From Polyangium mundeleinium (GTDB lineage: Bacteria > Myxococcota_A > Polyangia > Polyangiales > Polyangiaceae): a stretch of DNA of 64,000 bases. Where the stretch lies: the NCBI RefSeq assembly GCF_028369105.1, contig NZ_JAQNDO010000001.1, positions 8,030,501 through 8,094,500 of the forward strand, read 5' to 3'. Every line of letters begins with the position of its first letter. The first letter of the stretch is position 1. The notes beneath the pieces were generated by a model. That model was not told the DNA's origin and made no database searches. It was given only the letters and a program-made list of their open reading frames with translations. Both the position numbers and the translations under genes were made by a program. Of the stretch, positions 6,414 to 18,882 are shown one piece after another.

Positions 6414-8336
6414 ATGGCCTCGATGGAAGTCGTCTCGGCGTGCCCCCTTCGTGTCGGCTCGATCCTCTGGCAGCCGCGGGAGGGCACGTACGTGCTCACG
6501 GTCGTCTGCAAGGCGACCTTCACCCTCGCGCCGGACCTCTCCGTACTCGCCGAGGAGCAGGACGATCCGAACGAGCACGACGAGTACTGGGACGACGACG
6601 CGCGGCGCAGCCTGAGCGCGGCGAGTGACTTCGCCCCGTTCAAGCGTGGCGCCGACATCCTCCTCGTCGGCCACGCCTACGCGCCCCACGCCTCGCCGGG
6701 CGGGCCCTTTTTCGCGCGGCTCGTGGTCGGCGACATGCTCGACAAGACGATCGAGGTGCACGGCGAGCGCGCGTGGACCGCGGACGGGCGCCTGCTCGAA
6801 GAGCCTCCCGCGGGCCGCGTGGCGCTCCGGTGGGAGCGGGCCGCGGGCGGGCCGGGCACGACGAACCCGGTGGGCGTGTCGCCGAACGCGCCGCCGGATG
6901 CGCGGCACCTCCGGCGCGTGCCGAACTTCGGGCCCCCTGGCTTGCGCCTGACGCGGCCCTCGGAGGTGATCCCGCCGGTCGGCTTCGGGCCGATCGCGCC
7001 GACGTGGCCCGAGCGCCAGGCAAACCTCCCCCGGCATGCGGCGGGCTGGGATCACCAACGGCTCGGGGCGTGGCCGCTGCCCGCCGGGATCGACGCGTCG
7101 TTCTTCAACACGGCGCCGCCGGACCAGCGCGTCCCGGAGCTCGTGGGCGACGAGCGGATCTCGCTCACGAACCTGCACCCGCATCTCCCCGCGCTCTCGA
7201 CACGCCTGCGGCTCGTCAAACCACGCGCGCTCGTGCAGAAGAGCGGGGCGCCGGCCGATCTGCGCTTCCGGTGCGACACGCTCTTCCTCGACACGAACCG
7301 GGGCATCGGCACGCTCACCTGGCGGGGCAGCTTGCCGCTCGTATCGCCGCACGAGGACGGGTGCGTCGTGGTGACGACCGAGGAGAGTGATCGTCAGCTC
7401 TCGGGGAGCGGCGCGCCCGGCACGGTCCAGCTCGACTGGCGTTCGAGCCAGCAGGCGGCCGTCTCCCCTGCCCTGCCCTTCACGCCCAGCGATCCGGCGG
7501 ACGAGGAGACGAACAGCCTCTCCCTGGAGGACACGACGACGATCTCGCCCGACTCCCAGCGGCTCGATCCGGGGGCGGCGCTGCCCTTCGTAAAACCTCC
7601 GCTCGCCGTCCTGGGGGTGGCCTTGCCCGCGCCGCCGCCGCTCGCGCCGGCGCCTGTGCGGCCCCCGTCCTCCGTACCGCCGCCGCCGCTGCCCTTCGAG
7701 CCGCCGCCGCCCGCGTCGCGCCCCGCGCCGCCCGACAGGGTCGCGCCGGGCCTGCCCCAGGCTCCGCCGATGATCGGCCCCCTCGCGACGCTCCGTGATC
7801 CCGCGCCCTCCGAGATCGCCCCGCCGCCTGCGCCCGCGCCCGCGCCCGCGCCTCCTGCGCCCGCCCCGGCCACGCCGGCGCCGGAGCCTGCGCCCGAGCG
7901 TGATCCGGCGACTGTTTCGATCGAGCAGTTCGCCACGATCTCGGCCGAAATCGCGGAGCAACACGAGAGCCGCGCCGACATCCTCCGGCGAGCCGAGCTG
8001 ACGGAGAGGACCTTCGCCGAGGTCGAGCGCCGGTGTTCACGCGTGCTCGCCGAGGAAGCGGCCCGCGGGGAGCATGACGAGCGAACCAAGTACGACCGCT
8101 CGTACGTCGCCGCGGTGGAGGGGTTTCGGGGGCCGATCAAGCCCGACGAATACGCGCGGATCATGGCGTCCCTCGTGCGGGGACAGGCCCCTGCCGTGCT
8201 CGACGAGCTCGAGATTCAGCAGCCGGCGCTGATGCCGATCCTGCGTTCATGGGCGAAGAACGCCGCCGGAGCCACGGGCGCTGGTGGCGGGGCGCTCGAC
8301 GCGCTCGACGCCTTCCGCGGAACGAAGCGCACCTGA
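6414..8336 (+). CDS. DUF2169 domain protein with Pro-rich linker
   Basis: The 640-residue protein has a DUF2169 domain over about residues 1-330, including FKRGADILLVGHAYAP near residue 77 and a second half aligned with GAWPLPAGIDASFFNTAPPD. About residues 400-500 are a low-complexity stretch of Pro and Ala, likely a flexible tether. The last 130 residues are helical and end in a Gly/Ala-rich segment. It is the second DUF2169 protein of this operon and lacks pentapeptide repeats, so the two may serve different cargo. It is the last gene of the operon; its stop is followed by a 43-nt periodic array and then a convergent gene. Confidence 0.86.
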   Translation: MASMEVVSACPLRVGSILWQPREGTYVLTVVCKATFTLAPDLSVLAEEQDDPNEHDEYWDDDARRSLSAASDFAPFKRGADILLVGHAYAPHASPGGPFFARLVVGDMLDKTIEVHGERAWTADGRLLEEPPAGRVALRWERAAGGPGTTNPVGVSPNAPPDARHLRRVPNFGPPGLRLTRPSEVIPPVGFGPIAPTWPERQANLPRHAAGWDHQRLGAWPLPAGIDASFFNTAPPDQRVPELVGDERISLTNLHPHLPALSTRLRLVKPRALVQKSGAPADLRFRCDTLFLDTNRGIGTLTWRGSLPLVSPHEDGCVVVTTEESDRQLSGSGAPGTVQLDWRSSQQAAVSPALPFTPSDPADEETNSLSLEDTTTISPDSQRLDPGAALPFVKPPLAVLGVALPAPPPLAPAPVRPPSSVPPPPLPFEPPPPASRPAPPDRVAPGLPQAPPMIGPLATLRDPAPSEIAPPPAPAPAPAPPAPAPATPAPEPAPERDPATVSIEQFATISAEIAEQHESRADILRRAELTERTFAEVERRCSRVLAEEAARGEHDERTKYDRSYVAAVEGFRGPIKPDEYARIMASLVRGQAPAVLDELEIQQPALMPILRSWAKNAAGATGAGGGALDALDAFRGTKRT

Positions 8337-8370
8337 GCTCGAACGTCCGCGGGGACGCGCCTCCCGCGGG

Positions 8371-8757
8371 TGCAGCGACGCAAAAGGAACGCGACCACCT
8401 GCGCGGTCGTCCTTGCATCGACGCGAAGGCGCCCGGGACACGTGCACAGCGTGGGATGCATCGACGCAAGAGCGGCTGGGACGCCGTGATCCGCGTGCTT
8501 GCGTCGACGCAAGCGCCACCAGGCCCCCGTCACGACGAGGGTTGCATCGACGCAAGCGCGCCCGCGCCGCGGGCACGACGTCCCTCGCGCGCGTGCAAGG
8601 CGCGCTGTGCAGGTTGTTTGGAGCGCCTTGCACGTGCGCAACACCCACCGAGCAACCGCCCTCGAACGTGTTGCGCGCATGCAAGGCGCGTCTCGCTCTC
8701 CCGCTGGAAGCTGACGCGTCCGCGCAAGCTTCGGCGCCCCCACCCGCTACGGGTTCC
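8371..8757. repeat. Array A: 43-nt periodic palindromic units, nine copies
   Basis: Units start at 8371, 8414, 8457, 8500, 8543, 8586, 8629, 8672 and 8715, an exact 43-nt spacing with no indels. Each begins with a form of TGCRTCGACGCAAG, which with the preceding CT makes an imperfect to perfect palindrome (CTTGCGTCGACGCAAG at 8498-8513 is perfect). The remaining roughly 29 nt differ between units. A tenth, weak unit may begin with TGC at 8758. The array fills the gap between two convergent genes. The period is not a multiple of three, so it is not a protein repeat. Related arrays occur at 19821 and 29204. The function is unknown. Confidence 0.85.
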
Positions 8758-10531: not shown

Positions 10532-11718
10532 CGGCACTCTTCCAGGGGCTCGAGGAATGGTTCGACTACTCGACGGAGAGCTTCCAAGCAGCGGGCGCCA
10601 ACGCCGAGCTCGACCCGCGTCACATCCCCACGATCCCGACCGCCTACAACGGCGAGACCTATCGATGGCTCGCCACGCGGTATCGTGACGTCTACCTGGA
10701 TCTGTACCGGGCCGTCCAAGCCGACGGGACGCTGATCCAGAAGCAGCCCCCCCATTTCACGCAGGAGTGGGCCAAGCACTTCGAACCCATCACGATCTGG
10801 AAGCAGGTCTGCCCGCTCTTCGTCTTCGGTCAAGCGCTCGGTGGTCTCGACGCACGTCACCGCGACCTCGCCCGCGCCTACGCGCTCGGGTACGGCGTCC
10901 CGGTGATGGCGATCGATCGGATCCTGGACGCGCTGCCGGGAGCCGCCTCCACGAAGCACACGTGGCTCTTCGTATTGGCCTCCTACGCGCTGGGGCTCGA
11001 GCAGCTCCAGAAGGTCGACGCGCCGCCGGCCGCCGAGCGTTGTTTCCTGCGGCATACCCAGGAAATGTATCACTTCTTCTGGGGCGAAGAACGAGCGCGA
11101 TATCAACTGCCCGAGGCCATCTCGGCAGCCACGCTCACGAAGTATCTGGAGGGCGACAGCCGTCTCCTGTCGTCCATCTTCTTCCCCGTGACAATCGAGT
11201 GGGCCTTCCTGCTCGCCGAGGGAGCATTGCCCCCCGCATTCGCACCCGCACTCGTCGCCCTGCGAAGAATGCGTCAGCTCAACGACGAGGTGGTGGACGC
11301 CGACGAGGACATTCGTTTCGGCCTCGTCACATTCCCCTATCTACACGGCCTGGCGTCCCCCCAGGGCTCGCAGCTCGCCGAAAACGTCCTCGCAACCTGG
11401 AAGCTCGACCGCAACGAGCCCGGCTCGCCAAAGATGGCCGAGCTGACCGCACAACGCCGCCGTCTCCTGCACGAAGCCGGGAGCTTCGAGGCAGCCGCGC
11501 AATTCTCGATGGGCTGTCTACGGACGGTCATGCAGGCCGTCATGGGCCATCTCCCCGCCAAGACCGCATTCGACGTCACCCTGCTGGTCAACCAGCGGGT
11601 GTCGCACCTCTACCGGCTCGCCCAGCACGGCTGGAACGAAATCCCCAGCGTCTACCAACCAGAGCCGTTCTCCGCATCGAGCAAGTCCGCCGTCCCCTTG
11701 TCCGTTCCCTGGACGTGA
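10528..11718 (+). CDS. Isoprenoid-synthase-like protein coupled to a STAS regulator
   Basis: The 396-residue protein is helical throughout. Around residue 252 the segment QLNDEVVDADEDIRFGLVTF resembles the second aspartate-rich region of trans-prenyltransferases followed by the usual G(K/L)xTxP stretch. Around residues 131-136 IDRILD could be a degenerate first DDxxD motif in which the second Asp is Arg. This suggests the class I isoprenoid synthase fold, but catalysis is uncertain. ATG 10528 overlaps the stop of the PAS-STAS gene (ATGA), so the two are translationally coupled. A terpene or prenyl role under stress control, or a catalytically dead helical partner, are both possible. Confidence 0.55.
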   Translation: MTALFQGLEEWFDYSTESFQAAGANAELDPRHIPTIPTAYNGETYRWLATRYRDVYLDLYRAVQADGTLIQKQPPHFTQEWAKHFEPITIWKQVCPLFVFGQALGGLDARHRDLARAYALGYGVPVMAIDRILDALPGAASTKHTWLFVLASYALGLEQLQKVDAPPAAERCFLRHTQEMYHFFWGEERARYQLPEAISAATLTKYLEGDSRLLSSIFFPVTIEWAFLLAEGALPPAFAPALVALRRMRQLNDEVVDADEDIRFGLVTFPYLHGLASPQGSQLAENVLATWKLDRNEPGSPKMAELTAQRRRLLHEAGSFEAAAQFSMGCLRTVMQAVMGHLPAKTAFDVTLLVNQRVSHLYRLAQHGWNEIPSVYQPEPFSASSKSAVPLSVPWT

Positions 11719-11757
11719 ACGCTGTCTGAGCGTGGGTCTCTTCGGGGGGGCGTCGCG

Positions 11758-11819
11758 CCGGGGCGCTGCCCCGGACCCCGCGGGGGCTATCCGCCCCTCG
11801 ACCCGGACCAGGCACGGCC
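11758..11819. repeat. Four-hairpin repeat P-a, left part (split by an IS)
   Basis: Two hairpins are seen here: CCGGGGC-GCT-GCCCCGG at 11758-11774 and GGGGC-TATCC-GCCCC at 11783-11797. The third hairpin begins at 11808 and is cut by the IS inserted after the 9-bp target GGCACGGCC at 11811-11819. The rest of the element continues at 13324. It lies about 40 bp downstream of the isoprenoid-synthase-like gene. The intact relatives are at 13497-13601 and 18749-18852. Confidence 0.75.
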
Positions 11820-13323
11820 CTGAGCACTGGTCTCATCTCACGAGCCCATTCTCCCTGAGGACCCGCAGCATCTCTGCTGCGGGGGCCAGGCGCTCCAGGC
11901 CGCGGCTGATGGTGACGGAGCCGGGGGGACCTCCGGAAGACTTGCCTGTGTAGCCGCCGAGCTCGGCGATCCACTGCACGGCGAGCGCGATGGGCGGGAT
12001 CCCATCGGGGATCTGCTCGTTCTTCTTCTTCCGTTTCCGCTTGAGCAGCACCAAGGCCTCGACCTCGTATGTCGCGAGCTCTTCGGTCGCTGGCAGGTCC
12101 GGTTGGGTGCGCGCGAGGTGCTTGAGACGTTCGGTGCGTGTGGCGATGGCTGCGAGCATGCTGCCCCAGATTTTGACTTGTTGGGTCCCTTGAAGTTGCG
12201 TGGACTCGACGTTGCACTGGCCCGTCTTCCACGTCCGGAAAAAGTCCTCGATGCGCCAGCGCTGGCTGTAACCATGGGCGACCAGCAACGCATCCTCGAG
12301 CGTTTGCACGGGGTGGTTGGTGTACAGCAGCCAATCGATGCGAGGCTCGCCCGCGGGCACGCTGCTGGTCTCGAGGACGCGCACGGCATACAGCGGCAAC
12401 GCGCGCCAACGCTTGTTCCACCCGTCTCGAAGCGACAGCGTGACAGCCGCGACATGCGCGCTCATCCGCGCCATTCGCTCCGTGCGACCCGGTGCGGCCG
12501 AGATCCAAAGGGGAAAGGAGCCCTTTCGGGCGCTCGGGCGCGCCAACTCGTCGAACACGTATCGGCTCGCGCCCGTCTCCGACATGAGCCGGCGGTTTGC
12601 CTTGCCCCGCACGGTGAACCAGTGCCCGCTCGTCGAGAGGTGAAGCAAAAGCTGCCAGGCATCAGCCTCCCGGTCGAGCTGGTACCAGGCACAACAACCC
12701 GACGCCGCCATGGCGAGCCGCTCGGACGTCTCGGTGATCACGTTGGCCCAGTGGCCGAGCTCCTTTTCGTGCAGCTTGCGCTTGGCGCTGTCTTCTTTCT
12801 GCTTCTGCTCTCGCGCCCACCACTGCATCGACGTCAAGCCGCAGGGCACCCCCTGCGCGTCGACGGCGAGACCGCAAACGACCTTCAGCCCGCGGGTGCC
12901 TCGACCATGCGTGCCGACCGCGCCGAAGTCCTTGCTGCGGTTGTGATCCGTGAGCGTCAGGCTGGTGGCATCGATGGCGACGAAGACGAACATCTCCTTG
13001 GCGCAACGGCGCGCGGTGGCAAGACCGGTGGCCTCGAGGATGGCCCCTACGTCGATGTGTCGGCTCTCCAGGAAGTCGTACGCTCCCTGCCTGTGGGCAT
13101 CGACTTGGAAGACTTCACTCACCTTTCCCGACGGATACAGCACCGCCTGCGCGGCCATGCGCGTCAGCCGCCGGGTCCGGCGCGGGTCTCCAAGGTCCGC
13201 ATGCCCAAACTCCTCCGCCGCCCACGCTTCCGCCGACGAGGCTGTCTCTGCATCCAACATCTCCCCCTCTAAATGTCGTCAGAGGGGGCGAATGTACCGA
13301 TGGAAGATGGAACCAATGCTCAG
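11820..13323. mobile_element. Tn5-like insertion sequence (IS4 superfamily), complete
   Basis: The element is 1504 bp. The left end CTGAGCACTGGTCTCATCT matches the complement of the right end CTGAGCATTGGTTCCATCT at 16 of 19 positions. It is flanked by a perfect 9-bp duplication GGCACGGCC (11811-11819 and 13324-13332). Removing the element and one duplication restores the palindrome that is intact in the related repeat at 18788-18802, which proves the insertion point. A single transposase gene fills it. A 9-bp duplication and 19-bp ends are typical of the IS50/Tn5 group. The element looks intact and recent. Confidence 0.92.
11833..13260 (-). CDS. DDE transposase of the Tn5/IS50 type
   Basis: At 475 residues it matches the usual length of Tn5 transposase. 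The N-terminus has EEFGHADLGDPRRTRRL, typical of the Tn5 DNA-binding region. The catalytic triad is visible: Asp97 in VAIDATSL, Asp196 or Asp200 in the DREAD block, and Glu338 within YSQRWRIEDFFRTWKTG, which fits the Y-(2)-R-(3)-E-(6)-K signature of IS4 transposases exactly (Tyr331, Arg334, Glu338, Lys345). It catalyses cut-and-paste transposition of the surrounding element. The frame is intact, so the protein is probably active. Confidence 0.93.
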   Translation of the reverse strand: MLDAETASSAEAWAAEEFGHADLGDPRRTRRLTRMAAQAVLYPSGKVSEVFQVDAHRQGAYDFLESRHIDVGAILEATGLATARRCAKEMFVFVAIDATSLTLTDHNRSKDFGAVGTHGRGTRGLKVVCGLAVDAQGVPCGLTSMQWWAREQKQKEDSAKRKLHEKELGHWANVITETSERLAMAASGCCAWYQLDREADAWQLLLHLSTSGHWFTVRGKANRRLMSETGASRYVFDELARPSARKGSFPLWISAAPGRTERMARMSAHVAAVTLSLRDGWNKRWRALPLYAVRVLETSSVPAGEPRIDWLLYTNHPVQTLEDALLVAHGYSQRWRIEDFFRTWKTGQCNVESTQLQGTQQVKIWGSMLAAIATRTERLKHLARTQPDLPATEELATYEVEALVLLKRKRKKKNEQIPDGIPPIALAVQWIAELGGYTGKSSGGPPGSVTISRGLERLAPAAEMLRVLRENGLVR

Positions 13324-13373
13324 GGCACGGCCTGGACCGGGGGTGGAAGAACTGCGCTCCGCGCAGTTCTTCC
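13324..13373. repeat. Four-hairpin repeat P-a, right part
   Basis: This is the continuation of the repeat interrupted by the IS: the second copy of the 9-bp target, the closing TGG of the broken hairpin, then GGAAGAACTGCGC-TCC-GCGCAGTTCTTCC at 13345-13373, a perfect 13-bp stem with a 3-nt loop. The sequence after it (13374-13390) matches the complement of the flank of the copy at 18749. Confidence 0.75.
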
Positions 13374-13496
13374 AACGGGCCCGTGGCAAGACCAAGGACG
13401 TGCGTCTCAGGCTGGCGACGGGCACGTTGCCGGTTGAACCTGCGGCGCTGCCGTGTTGGTCGGCAGGGTCGTCGCCGGTCTTGACTTGCGGCTGTT

Positions 13497-13601
13497 CGAT
13501 GAACTGCGCATCGCGCAGTTCATCGACCCCGAGTCCAGCGCTTGCGCTGGTCCGGGTCCCGGGGCGGACAGCCCCGGGTGGGGCCTGGGGCAAAGCCCCA
13601 G
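13497..13601. repeat. Four-hairpin repeat P-c
   Basis: Four hairpins follow one another: CGATGAACTGCGC-ATC-GCGCAGTTCATCG (13497-13525), CCAGCGC-TT-GCGCTGG (13535-13550), CCCGGGGC-GGACA-GCCCCGGG (13558-13578) and CTGGGGC-AAA-GCCCCAG (13585-13601). Order, spacing and loop types match the copy at 18749, while stem bases differ in a compensatory way. The element ends 16 bp from the stop codon of the convergent RND gene, so it would be transcribed as its 3' untranslated region. A termination or mRNA-stability role is plausible but unproven; there is no T-tract. Confidence 0.8.
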
Positions 13602-13617
13602 CGCGGCGCCCCCACGC

Positions 13618-16600
13618 TCACTCGGCAGGCTGAATGGACGGCTCCGCATCCGGACGGCTGCCACTGGCTGCGGGCGAGAGCCGCTTCACCACGCTTCTTA
13701 CGACGACGTAGAAGGCGGGGACGAGGAGGAGCGCGAGCACGGTCGCGCTGATCATCCCGCCGAGGACGCCGGTGCCGAGTGCGCGCTGCGTTTCTGCGCT
13801 GGCGCCGCTTGCGATTGCGAGGGGGACGACGCCGAGCGTGAAGGCGAGGGACGTCATGAGGATGGGACGCAGGCGCAATCGTGCGGCTTCGATGGCTGCG
13901 CTTGCCGTCGAGCGCCCTTCCTCTTCGAGCTGCTTGGCGAACTCCACGATGAGAATGGCGTTCTTCGCGGAGAGCCCGATCAGCGTGATCAGACCGACCT
14001 TGAAGAACACGTCGTTCGGCATGCCGCGCAGCTTCACTGCCAGGAGCGCGCCGACCAGACCGAGGGGAACCACGAGCAGGACGGATACGGGGATGGACCA
14101 GCTCTCGTAGAGCGCGGCGAGCACGAGGAACACGACGAGCAGGGAGAGCGCGAGGAGCGCGGGCGCTTCGTTGCCCGAGAGACGCTCCTGATACGAGAGC
14201 CCCGTCCATTCCACGCCGTAGCCCGGGGGGAGCTGCGACACGAGACGCTCCATCTCGGCCATTGCTTCGCCGCTGCTGAAGCCGCTCGCTGCGGTGCCGG
14301 AGAGACGCACGGCGGGATACCCATTGTAGCGAACGAGCTGCAGCGGGCTCCGCTCCCACCGGGGTGTGGCCACGGCGGAGAGCGGCACCATGCGACCTTC
14401 TTGGTTGCGCACGGGCAGCGCGAACACGTCGTCGAGCTGCATCCGCACCTCGGGCTCTGCTTGCAGGATCACCTGCTGCAGACGCCCCGCGTTTGGAAAG
14501 TCATTGACGTACATCGAGCCGAGCGCCGCCGAGAGCGTCGCGTTGATCGACGCGAACGACACGCCGAACGCCTCTGCGCTCTGACGATCGATCTCCACGC
14601 GCACCGATGCGCCGTCGGGCAACCCCTCCGGATACACGCCCTCCACCACGCGGCTGTTTGCGGCAGCGGCGAGGAGCTGGTTCTGCGCGGCGAGCAGGCG
14701 CGTTTGCCCCTGGTTGCGTCGATCGACGAGGCGCATCGCGAACCCCGAGCTCGTCCCGAGGGAATCGATGGACGGCGGGAGCACGTTGAACATCCTTCCG
14801 TCGCGGATGCTCGCGAAACGCTCGTTCGCGGCTTGCACCTCTCCCTGGGCCGTTGCGCCTTCACGCTCGTCCCAGTCTTTGAGCGTCGTGAACATGAGCG
14901 CCGCGTTCGGGCCCGAGCCGGAGAAGCCGAAGCCTTGGATGGCCACCACCGCGCGCACGCCCCGTCGCTCGCGGGCGTAGGCTTCGTACGAGCGGATCAC
15001 CTGATCGGTCCGCTCGGCGGTCGCATCCGAAGGCAACGCGACGCTCGAGATCCAGTAGCCCTGATCCTCTTGGGGCAAAAACGAGCCCGGCAACGCGCGG
15101 AAGAGCCATGCCGCTCCGACGCCGATGGCGACGAGCGAGACGAGCGCGGTCCAGCTCCGCTTCACCACGCGCCCGACGCCCTGGCCGTATCGCTCGGTGA
15201 GCCACGCGAAGCCACGATTGAAAGGCCCGAACACGCCGCGGTTTGCATCATGGTGCGCGGACACCGGCTTCAAGAGGGTCGCGCAGAGGGCGGGCGTCAG
15301 CGAGAGCGCGAGGAACGCCGAGAGCAAGATCGACACTGCCATCGAGAGGCTGAACTGCCGGTAGATCGTCCCGACCGAGCCCGACGCGAACGCCATCGGA
15401 ATGAACACGGCCGACAGCACCAGCGTGATTCCGATGACCGCGCCGGTGATCTCCTTCATCGCCTTCTTCGTCGCTTCCTTCGGCGAGAGGCGCTCGGTCG
15501 CCATGATGCGCTCGACGTTCTCGACCACGACGATCGCGTCGTCGACGATGATGCCGATCGCGAGCACCATCCCGAACATCGTCAGCACGTTGATCGAATA
15601 CCCCGTCGCATACATCACGGCGAACGTGCCGAGCAGCGCGATCGGCGCGACGATGGCGGGCACAAGCGTGTAGCGGAGGTTCTGCAGGAACACGAACATC
15701 ACCACGAACACGAGCGCCATCGCCTCGAAAAAGGTCTTGAAGACCTTCTCGATCGAAATGCGAACGAAAGGCGCCGTGTCGTACGGAATGCCGACCTCGA
15801 TCCCGTCTGGAAACCCCTCGGCGAGCTCCGCGACGCGCGCGCGAATGAGCGCGGCCGTCTCCACCGCGTTCGCGCCGGGCGAGAGCATCACGCCCGCGCC
15901 GGCCGAGGGCGAGCCGTCCGTTCGTGTCGAGGTGCGGTAGCTCTGCGCGCCGAGCTCGATGCGGGCCACGTCCGACAAAAGGACACGCGAACCGTCGGCT
16001 CGTGCGCGCAGCACGATGGCGCCGAACTCCTCGGGCGTCTCGAGCTCGCCCTGCACCACGAGGGGAATCGTCACGCGTTGCCCCGGCACCGTCGGCGCGT
16101 CGCCCACCCGGCCCGGCGAAACCTGCGCGTTTTGCGCGCGGATGGCGTTCGCCACGTCCTCGATCGACACCTCGAGCGCCGTGAGCTGCGCGGGGTCGAG
16201 CCACACGCGCAAGGCGCGCGCGGCGGCGAAGACCTGCACGCTGCCCACGCCGCGGACGCGCTTCAGCTCTTCGACGAGACCCCGCGAAAGGAAGTCGCCG
16301 AGCGTCTGCTCGTCGTAGCGGCCATCGGGCGAGCGCAGATCGACGATGCAGAGAAAGTTCGAGGTCGAAGCTTCGACGGCGAGGCCGATCTGCCGGACCG
16401 TCTGTGGCAATCGAGGCTCCACGGTGCGCAGACGATTCTGGACCGCGACCTGGGCCAGCTCCGGATCGGTCCCCGGCTCGAACGTGACCGAGATCTGCGC
16501 GACGCCGGACGTGTCCGACGACGACTCGAAGTAGAGCAGATGCGGCACGCCCGATATCTCGCGCTCGATGGGCGCGAGCACGCTCTCGCTCATCGTGGAG

Positions 16601-17973: not shown

Positions 17974-18748
17974 GTCGTTGTTCTATCAATACTTTCGCGA
18001 AGTTTGTCCGTAATGGCCGCCGGATGGATGCCCCGGACGAACGCGGCGGGCTCCTGCCGGGTCCGATCGCGGAACATCTCCGTGGCGTTCGCGCGCGTGA
18101 GGAGGCAATGGCGAGAGGCCCGTGAGCGCCCCGACGCCTCCCGCGTGCGTGGGTCACGTCAGGACGTGAATGCGCCCTTCTTCACGCCCAAGCGCAACGG
18201 GGGCGCAGCGATGCCATTCCTGTCATGCCGCCATGGTGAAGGGAGGGGAACCTCGGAGCCAGAACGAGAGACATGCATGGCTCCTGGGTCGTGGCGCCCC
18301 ACACGGCCTTCCTTGGTTTACGGATCCATCTCGTTCAAAACGGAACAGGTTTACCACGAACAATATGAGGTGCAAGGGTACAGGGCGAAGAGCAAGCTAT
18401 GGAGTCGATCTCCGCAAGCTCGGATTCGAATCCAAAGAGCCGTTTGAAAATCTTACCTTGACATATCACCTGGCACGTGGACCGCGCCGGTCAGGGCGAA
18501 AGAGGTTCGCCTGCCGGCCCTGTCGTGCACGCGTCCAAGCCGAGAGACGGCTCCCGTTTGAAGGGAACCCACCGAGGAAGCAACCGAGGAAGCACGTTTC
18601 CCACGGCAACGGCCCCGCGCAGCGAGGAGACGTCGATAGGAGAGAGAAGCCGAGATGCGCCGAGGAGCGTCCTCGCTTCAGGGGTTTGGCGCCAGCGACG
18701 CAGACCTTTCCCCTGGCAACGTTCTCCCTGGTCTTGCCACCGGCCCGT
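17974..18748. other. Long intergenic stretch without a convincing gene
   Basis: About 775 bases hold no credible gene. Part of it (about 18310-18480) is clearly less GC-rich than the surroundings and may be a remnant of foreign DNA or a regulatory region. The open frames seen here have poor codon usage and no recognisable domains. The end is next to the four-hairpin repeat. Confidence 0.4.
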
Positions 18749-18852
18749 TGGAAGAACTGCGCATTGCGCAGTTCTTCCACCCCCGGTCCAGGCCGTGCCT
18801 GGTCCGGGTCGAGGGGCGGATAGCCCCCGCGGGGTCCGGGGCAGCGCCCCGG
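18749..18852. repeat. Four-hairpin repeat P-b, intact
   Basis: The hairpins are TGGAAGAACTGCGC-ATT with its exact complement (18749-18779, 14-bp stem), CCAGGC-CGT-GCCTGG (18788-18802), GGGGC-GGATA-GCCCC (18813-18827) and CCGGGGC-AGC-GCCCCGG (18836-18852). This is the uninterrupted form of the copy that the IS at 11820 broke. It lies about 30 bp from the stop of the gene at 18883 on the minus strand, with the fourth hairpin nearest the gene, as in the other copies. Confidence 0.8.
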
Positions 18853-18882
18853 CGCAACGCCCCCAGCCCCCCCGGCCGTGCG

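Follow-up and report, generated by a model that had tools for sequence, protein, structure and literature searches.

MITEs of IS4/Tn5-type insertion sequences are short, non-autonomous elements whose terminal inverted repeats resemble the ends of a resident insertion sequence. ERIC (IRU) repeats are extragenic palindromes of ~130 bp that have kept their structure and were once mobile. REP sequences are described in PMC3733652 as imperfect palindromes of 20 to 40 nt with a GTAG- or CGTC-type tag. In the accounts of PMC2817692 and PMC3116915, the REP/BIME and REPIN modules are extragenic and palindromic, form inverted pairs with short spacers, occur in hundreds of copies per genome, and are bound to a species or genus; they are thought to be non-autonomous mobile DNA and are targeted by insertion sequences. 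ISPpu9, ISPa11, and ISRm22 are given as insertion sequences that target REP (PMC1525189).

The window analyzed here is the whole 64,000-nt stretch of the Polyangium mundeleinium contig; window coordinates are contig positions minus 8030500. It contains one composite (11748-13614) and one lone module. Profiles built from the window copies define a module of ~150 nt that consists of an inner block of ~25 nt, four hairpins (H1 to H4), and a tail of 12 to 14 nt. H1 has a stem of 13 to 15 bp and a 3-nt loop. There are two forms of the module, A with a GAAGAAC stem and B with a GATGAAC stem, which are 74 to 83% identical in long cross-matches. The initial annotation described three copies with four hairpins in a fixed order. 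All three modules are real, and their hairpins are present in the letters and folds of the window, but copies 1 and 2 turn out to be the two arms of one composite. The borders lie ~25 nt upstream of H1 and ~12 to 14 nt past H4 and are thus wider than the limits first assigned. The features are as follows.

11726-11743, plus strand: 18-bp end resembling a terminal repeat, CTGAGCGTGGGTCTCTTC, with 2 mismatches against CTGAGCATGGGTCTCATC
11748-11823, minus strand: outer part of the A module (H4, H3, and part of H2), first arm of the composite (profile match A, q73-148)
11811-11819, no strand: left copy of the 9-bp target duplication GGCACGGCC
11820-13323, minus strand: 1504-bp insertion sequence of the IS4/Tn5 family within H2 of the A arm, assigned from ends and length
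11833-13260, minus strand: gene for a 475-aa IS4-family transposase (NF033590, 252.9 bits; PF14706, PF01609, and PF02281 over cut-off)
13324-13332, no strand: right copy of the target duplication GGCACGGCC
13324-13403, minus strand: inner part of the A module (the rest of H2, H1, and the inner block; profile match A, q6-85)
13404-13455, no strand: spacer separating the inner ends of arms A' and B, from profile-match borders
13456-13614, plus strand: B module, second arm of the composite (copy 2; profile match B, q3-159)
13496-13526, plus strand: H1 of B, 3-nt loop ATC (sequence and fold)
13535-13550, plus strand: H2 of B (fold and sequence)
13558-13578, plus strand: H3 of B, loop GGACA (fold and sequence)
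13585-13601, plus strand: H4 of B, the hairpin closest to the stop codon of the gene ending at 13618
18720-18862, plus strand: lone A module (copy 3), with no partner within the window (profile match A, q6-148)
18749-18779, 18788-18802, 18813-18827, and 18836-18852, plus strand: H1, H2, H3, and H4 of the lone A module

With its insertion, the A arm spans positions 11748 to 13403. When folded as RNA, copies 2 and 3 give z-scores of -5.8 to -7.4 on both strands, and none of 200 shuffles is equally stable. In module orientation, the H1 loop is ATC, GGA, or ACC in 151 of the 185 A modules and 180 of the 215 B modules. An inversion of the loop within H1 was considered and rejected, as GAT, TCC, or GGT loops are found in only 1 of 185 A and 12 of 215 B modules.

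The usual unit is a directed composite of ~350 bp, A'-spacer-B, with the modules placed head to head and their inner ends facing. In 2.1 Mb from this genome and its relatives, there are 127 head-to-head pairs, 120 of them A/B, 7 B/B, and none A/A, and 14 more neighboring modules point in the same direction. The gap between paired profile matches is ~20 or ~49 nt in this genome and mostly 20 to 35 or 45 to 55 nt when relatives are included. A profile search of 844.5 kb of the genome shows 105 modules in 56 clusters, a density that is not the genome average, as most of the stretches were picked where copies were already known. Lone modules and tandem composites also occur. A third repeat of ~290 to 370 bp, which links B arms or composites in tandem, has 8 matches in 904.5 kb of the genome (e.g., contig positions 6316414-6316780, 6301749-6302114, and 5826027-5826394).

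With up to 2 mismatches allowed, the 13.25-Mb genome contains 247 H1 palindromes, versus 4 matches for a reversed-pattern control; at 1 mismatch, it contains 203, versus none. Scattered copies are >90% identical along ~120 to 140 nt. Among the 183 genomes of the order that were searched, all 6 Polyangium genomes carry 41 to 490 H1 palindromes each, whereas a single palindrome is present in only 4 of the 177 others. Since the control itself matches one place in 6 genomes, such single matches outside the genus are at chance level. This range rests on the H1 pattern, and diverged relatives may have been missed. Among the 80 loci listed in the search of public genomes, 76 come from four Polyangium genomes and 4 from unrelated taxa. 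At the 68 to 70% G+C of this segment, strong G+C-rich hairpins after genes are expected, so ordinary terminators or chance palindromes might look alike; that explanation, extremely improbable here, is refuted by the long stretches of identity, the excess over the control, the limitation to one genus, and the A/B pairing.

The B arm has no match among 72,556 plasmid records, and spread by plasmids was accordingly rejected. A known RNA family was likewise rejected, as an Rfam scan of the whole window gave no match at the gathering score. A search of the open-access literature revealed nothing on such an element. The C-domain of dnaA is encoded at contig position 11651372. None of the 15 stretches of 20 kb sampled at up to 1.4 Mb from dnaA contains a module, and the 20 stretches sampled between 9.6 and 13.22 Mb contain 6 in total; the interval from 5.30 to 5.70 Mb, a stretch chosen for its known copies, contains 37. 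This distribution suggests that the copies avoid the origin side of the chromosome.

Copy 1, initially described as split between 11758 and 13373, is indeed an A arm cut by the insertion sequence at 11820 to 13323, which is flanked on either side by GGCACGGCC; in relative G148, the corresponding composite is intact and free of the insertion sequence. The transposase matches the 'IS4 family transposase' model (NF033590) and has Tn5-type DNA-binding and dimerization domains over cut-off. The ends of the insertion sequence are CTGAGCACTGGTCTCATC and CTGAGCATTGGTTCCATC. H2 of the A and B arms is a preferred target of this IS4/Tn5-family insertion sequence, with 18 of the 24 distinct ends abutting a module. 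Such insertion ends are found in the window (11811-13332) and at loci L164, L166, L217, L268, L269, L272, L273, L277, L279, and L280; the right end at L269, one of the six ends that do not abut a module match, is placed in a module by its duplication AACCAGGGC. Among the other five nonabutting ends, two belong to a single copy outside modules (contig 5332741-5334244), one (L276) also lies outside, and those at L042 and L184 have other inner sequence. The end at L184:528 is of the type CTGAGCA-YTGGT, but its inner sequence resembles neither the insertion sequence nor the modules, and it possibly represents another family sharing such ends.

Another insertion in H2 of an A arm is a 2090-bp element at contig positions 6314037 to 6316126 (L085:14037-16126), with ends like those of the insertion sequence and GGCACGGCC on both sides. 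Its longest frame (616 aa) matches nothing in Pfam or NCBIfam, and no transposase was seen in it; the element is perhaps a cargo-bearing, non-autonomous relative of the insertion sequence. The occurrence of the same ends and of the GGCACGGCC duplication in such an element suggests that the IS4-family transposase acts on the ends in trans and, if this is extended, on the composites too.

In the alignment columns, the tail consensus fades 12 to 14 nt past H4. The motif GATGAGACCCATGCTCAG, which in the inward reading is CTGAGCATGGGTCTCATC and nearly matches the ends of the insertion sequence, is found at up to 4 mismatches in 34 of 403 tails (mean for 50 shuffled motifs, 0.0) and at up to 5 mismatches in 42 (shuffled motifs, 0.7 at exactly 5). 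In 31 of these 42 tails, this terminal repeat starts exactly 14 nt after H4. A close terminal repeat is absent from 369 of the 403 tails, and only 5 of 175 composites have two recognizable repeats, one at each end, when up to 7 mismatches are allowed. Target duplications at the composites were looked for and rejected; none of these 5 is flanked by a 9-bp duplication. Relative G149, with 190 H1 palindromes, has no match to the IS4-family transposase.

Comparison of orthologous sites indicates mobility. Of the 15 aligned gaps in which one genome or both carry a module, 7 are filled in both, 6 only here, and 2 only in the relative. The clean sites are 6313948-6316958 (3010 bp here versus 4 bp in G151), 6301352-6302278 (926 versus 52 bp in G151), 5383496-5383857 (361 versus 116 bp in G148), and 6331485-6331498, where a gap of 13 bp here corresponds to a gap with a 357-bp composite in G150. 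The G150 region 7460-8421 was rejected as a clean empty site, and the gaps at 5391959, 5368422, and 6295679 of this genome are too rearranged to judge. Since the species differ in which corresponding sites carry a composite, the composites have moved, although a relative without one might in principle have lost it.

The REP-like mobile hairpin, one of several options offered in the initial annotation, fits best among them, given the presence/absence sites and the terminal repeats on a minority of tails, but the unit is a heteropair and Y1_Tnp matches are absent from this genome. A genuine REP/BIME family, mobilized by a RAYT (Y1 tyrosine) transposase that this genome has since lost, would account for the paired inverted palindromic modules, their extragenic location, and the tandem doublets seen in places, and 3 of the 6 Polyangium genomes do have Y1_Tnp matches. 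However, there are none in this genome, with its 247 H1 palindromes, nor in G149 (190) or G150 (448; both counted at 1 mismatch), and two of the four matches lie in frames of 152 aa, the size of ordinary IS200 transposases. The module length of ~150 nt and the DDE-type terminal repeat on part of the copies also argue against a RAYT origin, which we consider improbable.

The preferred reading, to which we assign a probability of about 0.55, is that of a non-autonomous, genus-limited mobile composite with a MITE-like build and a BIME/REPIN-like arrangement, possibly spread by an IS4/Tn5-family transposase, with the terminal repeats then mostly lost. The ancestral form would have been a composite of ~350 bp made of two inverted four-hairpin modules, with an 18-bp terminal inverted repeat at each end. 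It may have been spread in trans by an IS4/Tn5-family transposase from an insertion sequence with ends close to this repeat. Copies would persist after stop codons, where they are least harmful; most would then lose their terminal repeats, and the hairpins would stay, possibly as transcript-end structures.

The position of the copies bears on this last step. As noted from the sequence at the outset, H4 is the hairpin nearest to a stop codon in each window copy, the genes ending at 11718 (plus strand), 13618 (minus strand), and 18883 (minus strand, our own gene call). With genes called by our own codon-score script, the element occupies 22 of the 123 gene gaps that are convergent, 26 of the 389 that run in the same direction, and 3 of the 123 that are divergent (convergent versus divergent, p = 7e-5; convergent versus same-direction, p = 6e-4), so copies are not equally common away from gene ends. 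Stop-side distances are 30 nt or less in 60 of 70 cases (median, 9), versus 2 of 32 on the start side (median, 122). Where a convergent gap is occupied, the sequence flanking the element has a median length of 17.5 bp, about that of an entire convergent gap lacking the element (median, 15 bp). Of the 25 ends with a recognizable terminal repeat, 5 have the stop as a TGA inside the repeat, 8 have it 3 to 69 nt before the repeat, and 12 have no coding frame ending nearby. The repeat TGA is the called stop of the neighboring gene at L148, L189, L219, L017, and G150:C94 near 155474.

These positions could also reflect a functional 3'-end RNA element, the arms of which end, shield, or stabilize the neighboring transcript and are kept for it, movement being secondary or ancient. 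The location would likewise suit the 3' UTR element or terminator listed in the initial annotation. Besides the preference for stop sides and for convergent over divergent gaps, the paired stem changes speak for such an element, as does one copy located where the relative G148 has, in an element-free gap, a terminator-like hairpin with a 14-bp stem (identified by eye). However, in the window copies no U-tract is visible by eye downstream of either H1 or H4, and position alone is expected if insertions elsewhere were purged. We regard this alternative as possible but doubtful.

The compensatory stem changes first noticed in the window are seen in its copies, and double changes exceed shuffles across the aligned modules. 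Among 116 A and 141 B modules (of 159 and 168; shorter ones were dropped), unpaired changes are rare, with nonstandard pairs in 31 of 3933 pair cells in A and 26 of 5448 in B. Cells changed on both sides number 145 in A and 140 in B, compared with averages of 29.7 and 21.6 over the shuffles (at most 39 and 33), and slid pairing partners lose most of the double changes; the structures were predicted from the same alignments, and the shuffles ignore relatedness. Counted as events on trees, A (160 of 226 modules) shows 60 Watson-Crick-to-Watson-Crick changes, 25 G-T, and 5 A-C, and B (195 of 233 modules) shows 47, 52, and 4, respectively, shorter modules again being dropped. After exclusion of three loose outer pairs, a choice made once the data had been seen, the pooled wobble test counts 30 G-T versus 9 A-C events (p = 0.004). 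In B, the excess of G-T over A-C (20 versus 4, p = 0.001) favors a gene-end RNA, but it lies on the strand opposite to the transcript of the neighboring gene, and A has no excess over the unpaired control (10 versus 5, p = 0.62). This is at most a hint of a preference for RNA of the outward-running strand, in B only.

In three composites orthologous between this genome and G148, 31 of 582 arm sites differ, compared with 63 of 318 spacer sites (p = 4e-11), one arm being incomplete owing to the insertion sequence. One orthologous copy has two double changes, from GATGAAC/GTTCATC to GAGGAAC/GTTCCTC in H1 and from CCAGCC/GGCTGG to CCAGCG/CGCTGG in H2. Some of this conservation of arms and stems could instead be an effect of gene conversion among the copies. 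The initial proposal of a selected structured element is supported, as regards paired structure at gene 3' ends, by covariation, position, and arm conservation; the hairpins at gene 3' ends are kept by selection or by exchange between copies, and the element may have a role at gene ends. A further step, by which a transposable element became a genus-wide gene-end part, landing after the stop, replacing the native terminator, and losing its repeats while selection on RNA kept the hairpins of both arms, seems unlikely.

As neither of the defining features is present, a Y1 transposase here for REP/BIME or a target duplication for MITEs, the element is not filed as a proven member of either class; it is a new relative of the known small bacterial jumping repeats. 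If the preferred reading of a mobile composite is right, an element with DDE-type (IS4/Tn5-like) ends took the layout and niche of a BIME in genomes that lack a Y1/RAYT gene, and the hundreds of copies with clean empty sites in related species make the choice between selfish DNA and a gene-end part directly testable.

Like an intrinsic terminator, the element places a stable stem after the stop codon (z-scores of -5.8 to -7.4; 60 of 70 stop sides within 30 nt). It resembles ERIC/IRU, compared by description, in being a palindromic, once mobile extragenic repeat with a retained structure, and differs in its unrelated host bacteria, its two-arm composites, and its candidate transposase. It shares with IS4/Tn5-type MITEs the short, non-autonomous build and presence or absence at orthologous sites, and a minority of its tails (34 of 403) carry a terminal inverted repeat near those of the resident insertion sequence; unlike in MITEs, no 9-bp target duplication was found at the 5 composites with both ends recognizable, most copies are without the repeat, and the interior hairpins are conserved. 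As with ISPpu9, ISPa11, and ISRm22 in the account cited above, an insertion sequence lands preferentially in a repeated extragenic palindrome (18 of 24 ends), although here its transposase is of the IS4/Tn5 family and its ends resemble the target's own terminal repeat. In contrast to REP/BIME as described in the cited accounts, Y1_Tnp matches are absent from this genome and a minority of tails carry a DDE-type terminal repeat; the module has ~150 nt, four hairpins, and two distinct paired forms, compared with 20 to 40 nt in REP. Nevertheless, with its many extragenic palindromic copies in inverted pairs (247 H1; 127 head-to-head pairs), the element is arranged like REP/BIME and REPIN as portrayed in those same sources.
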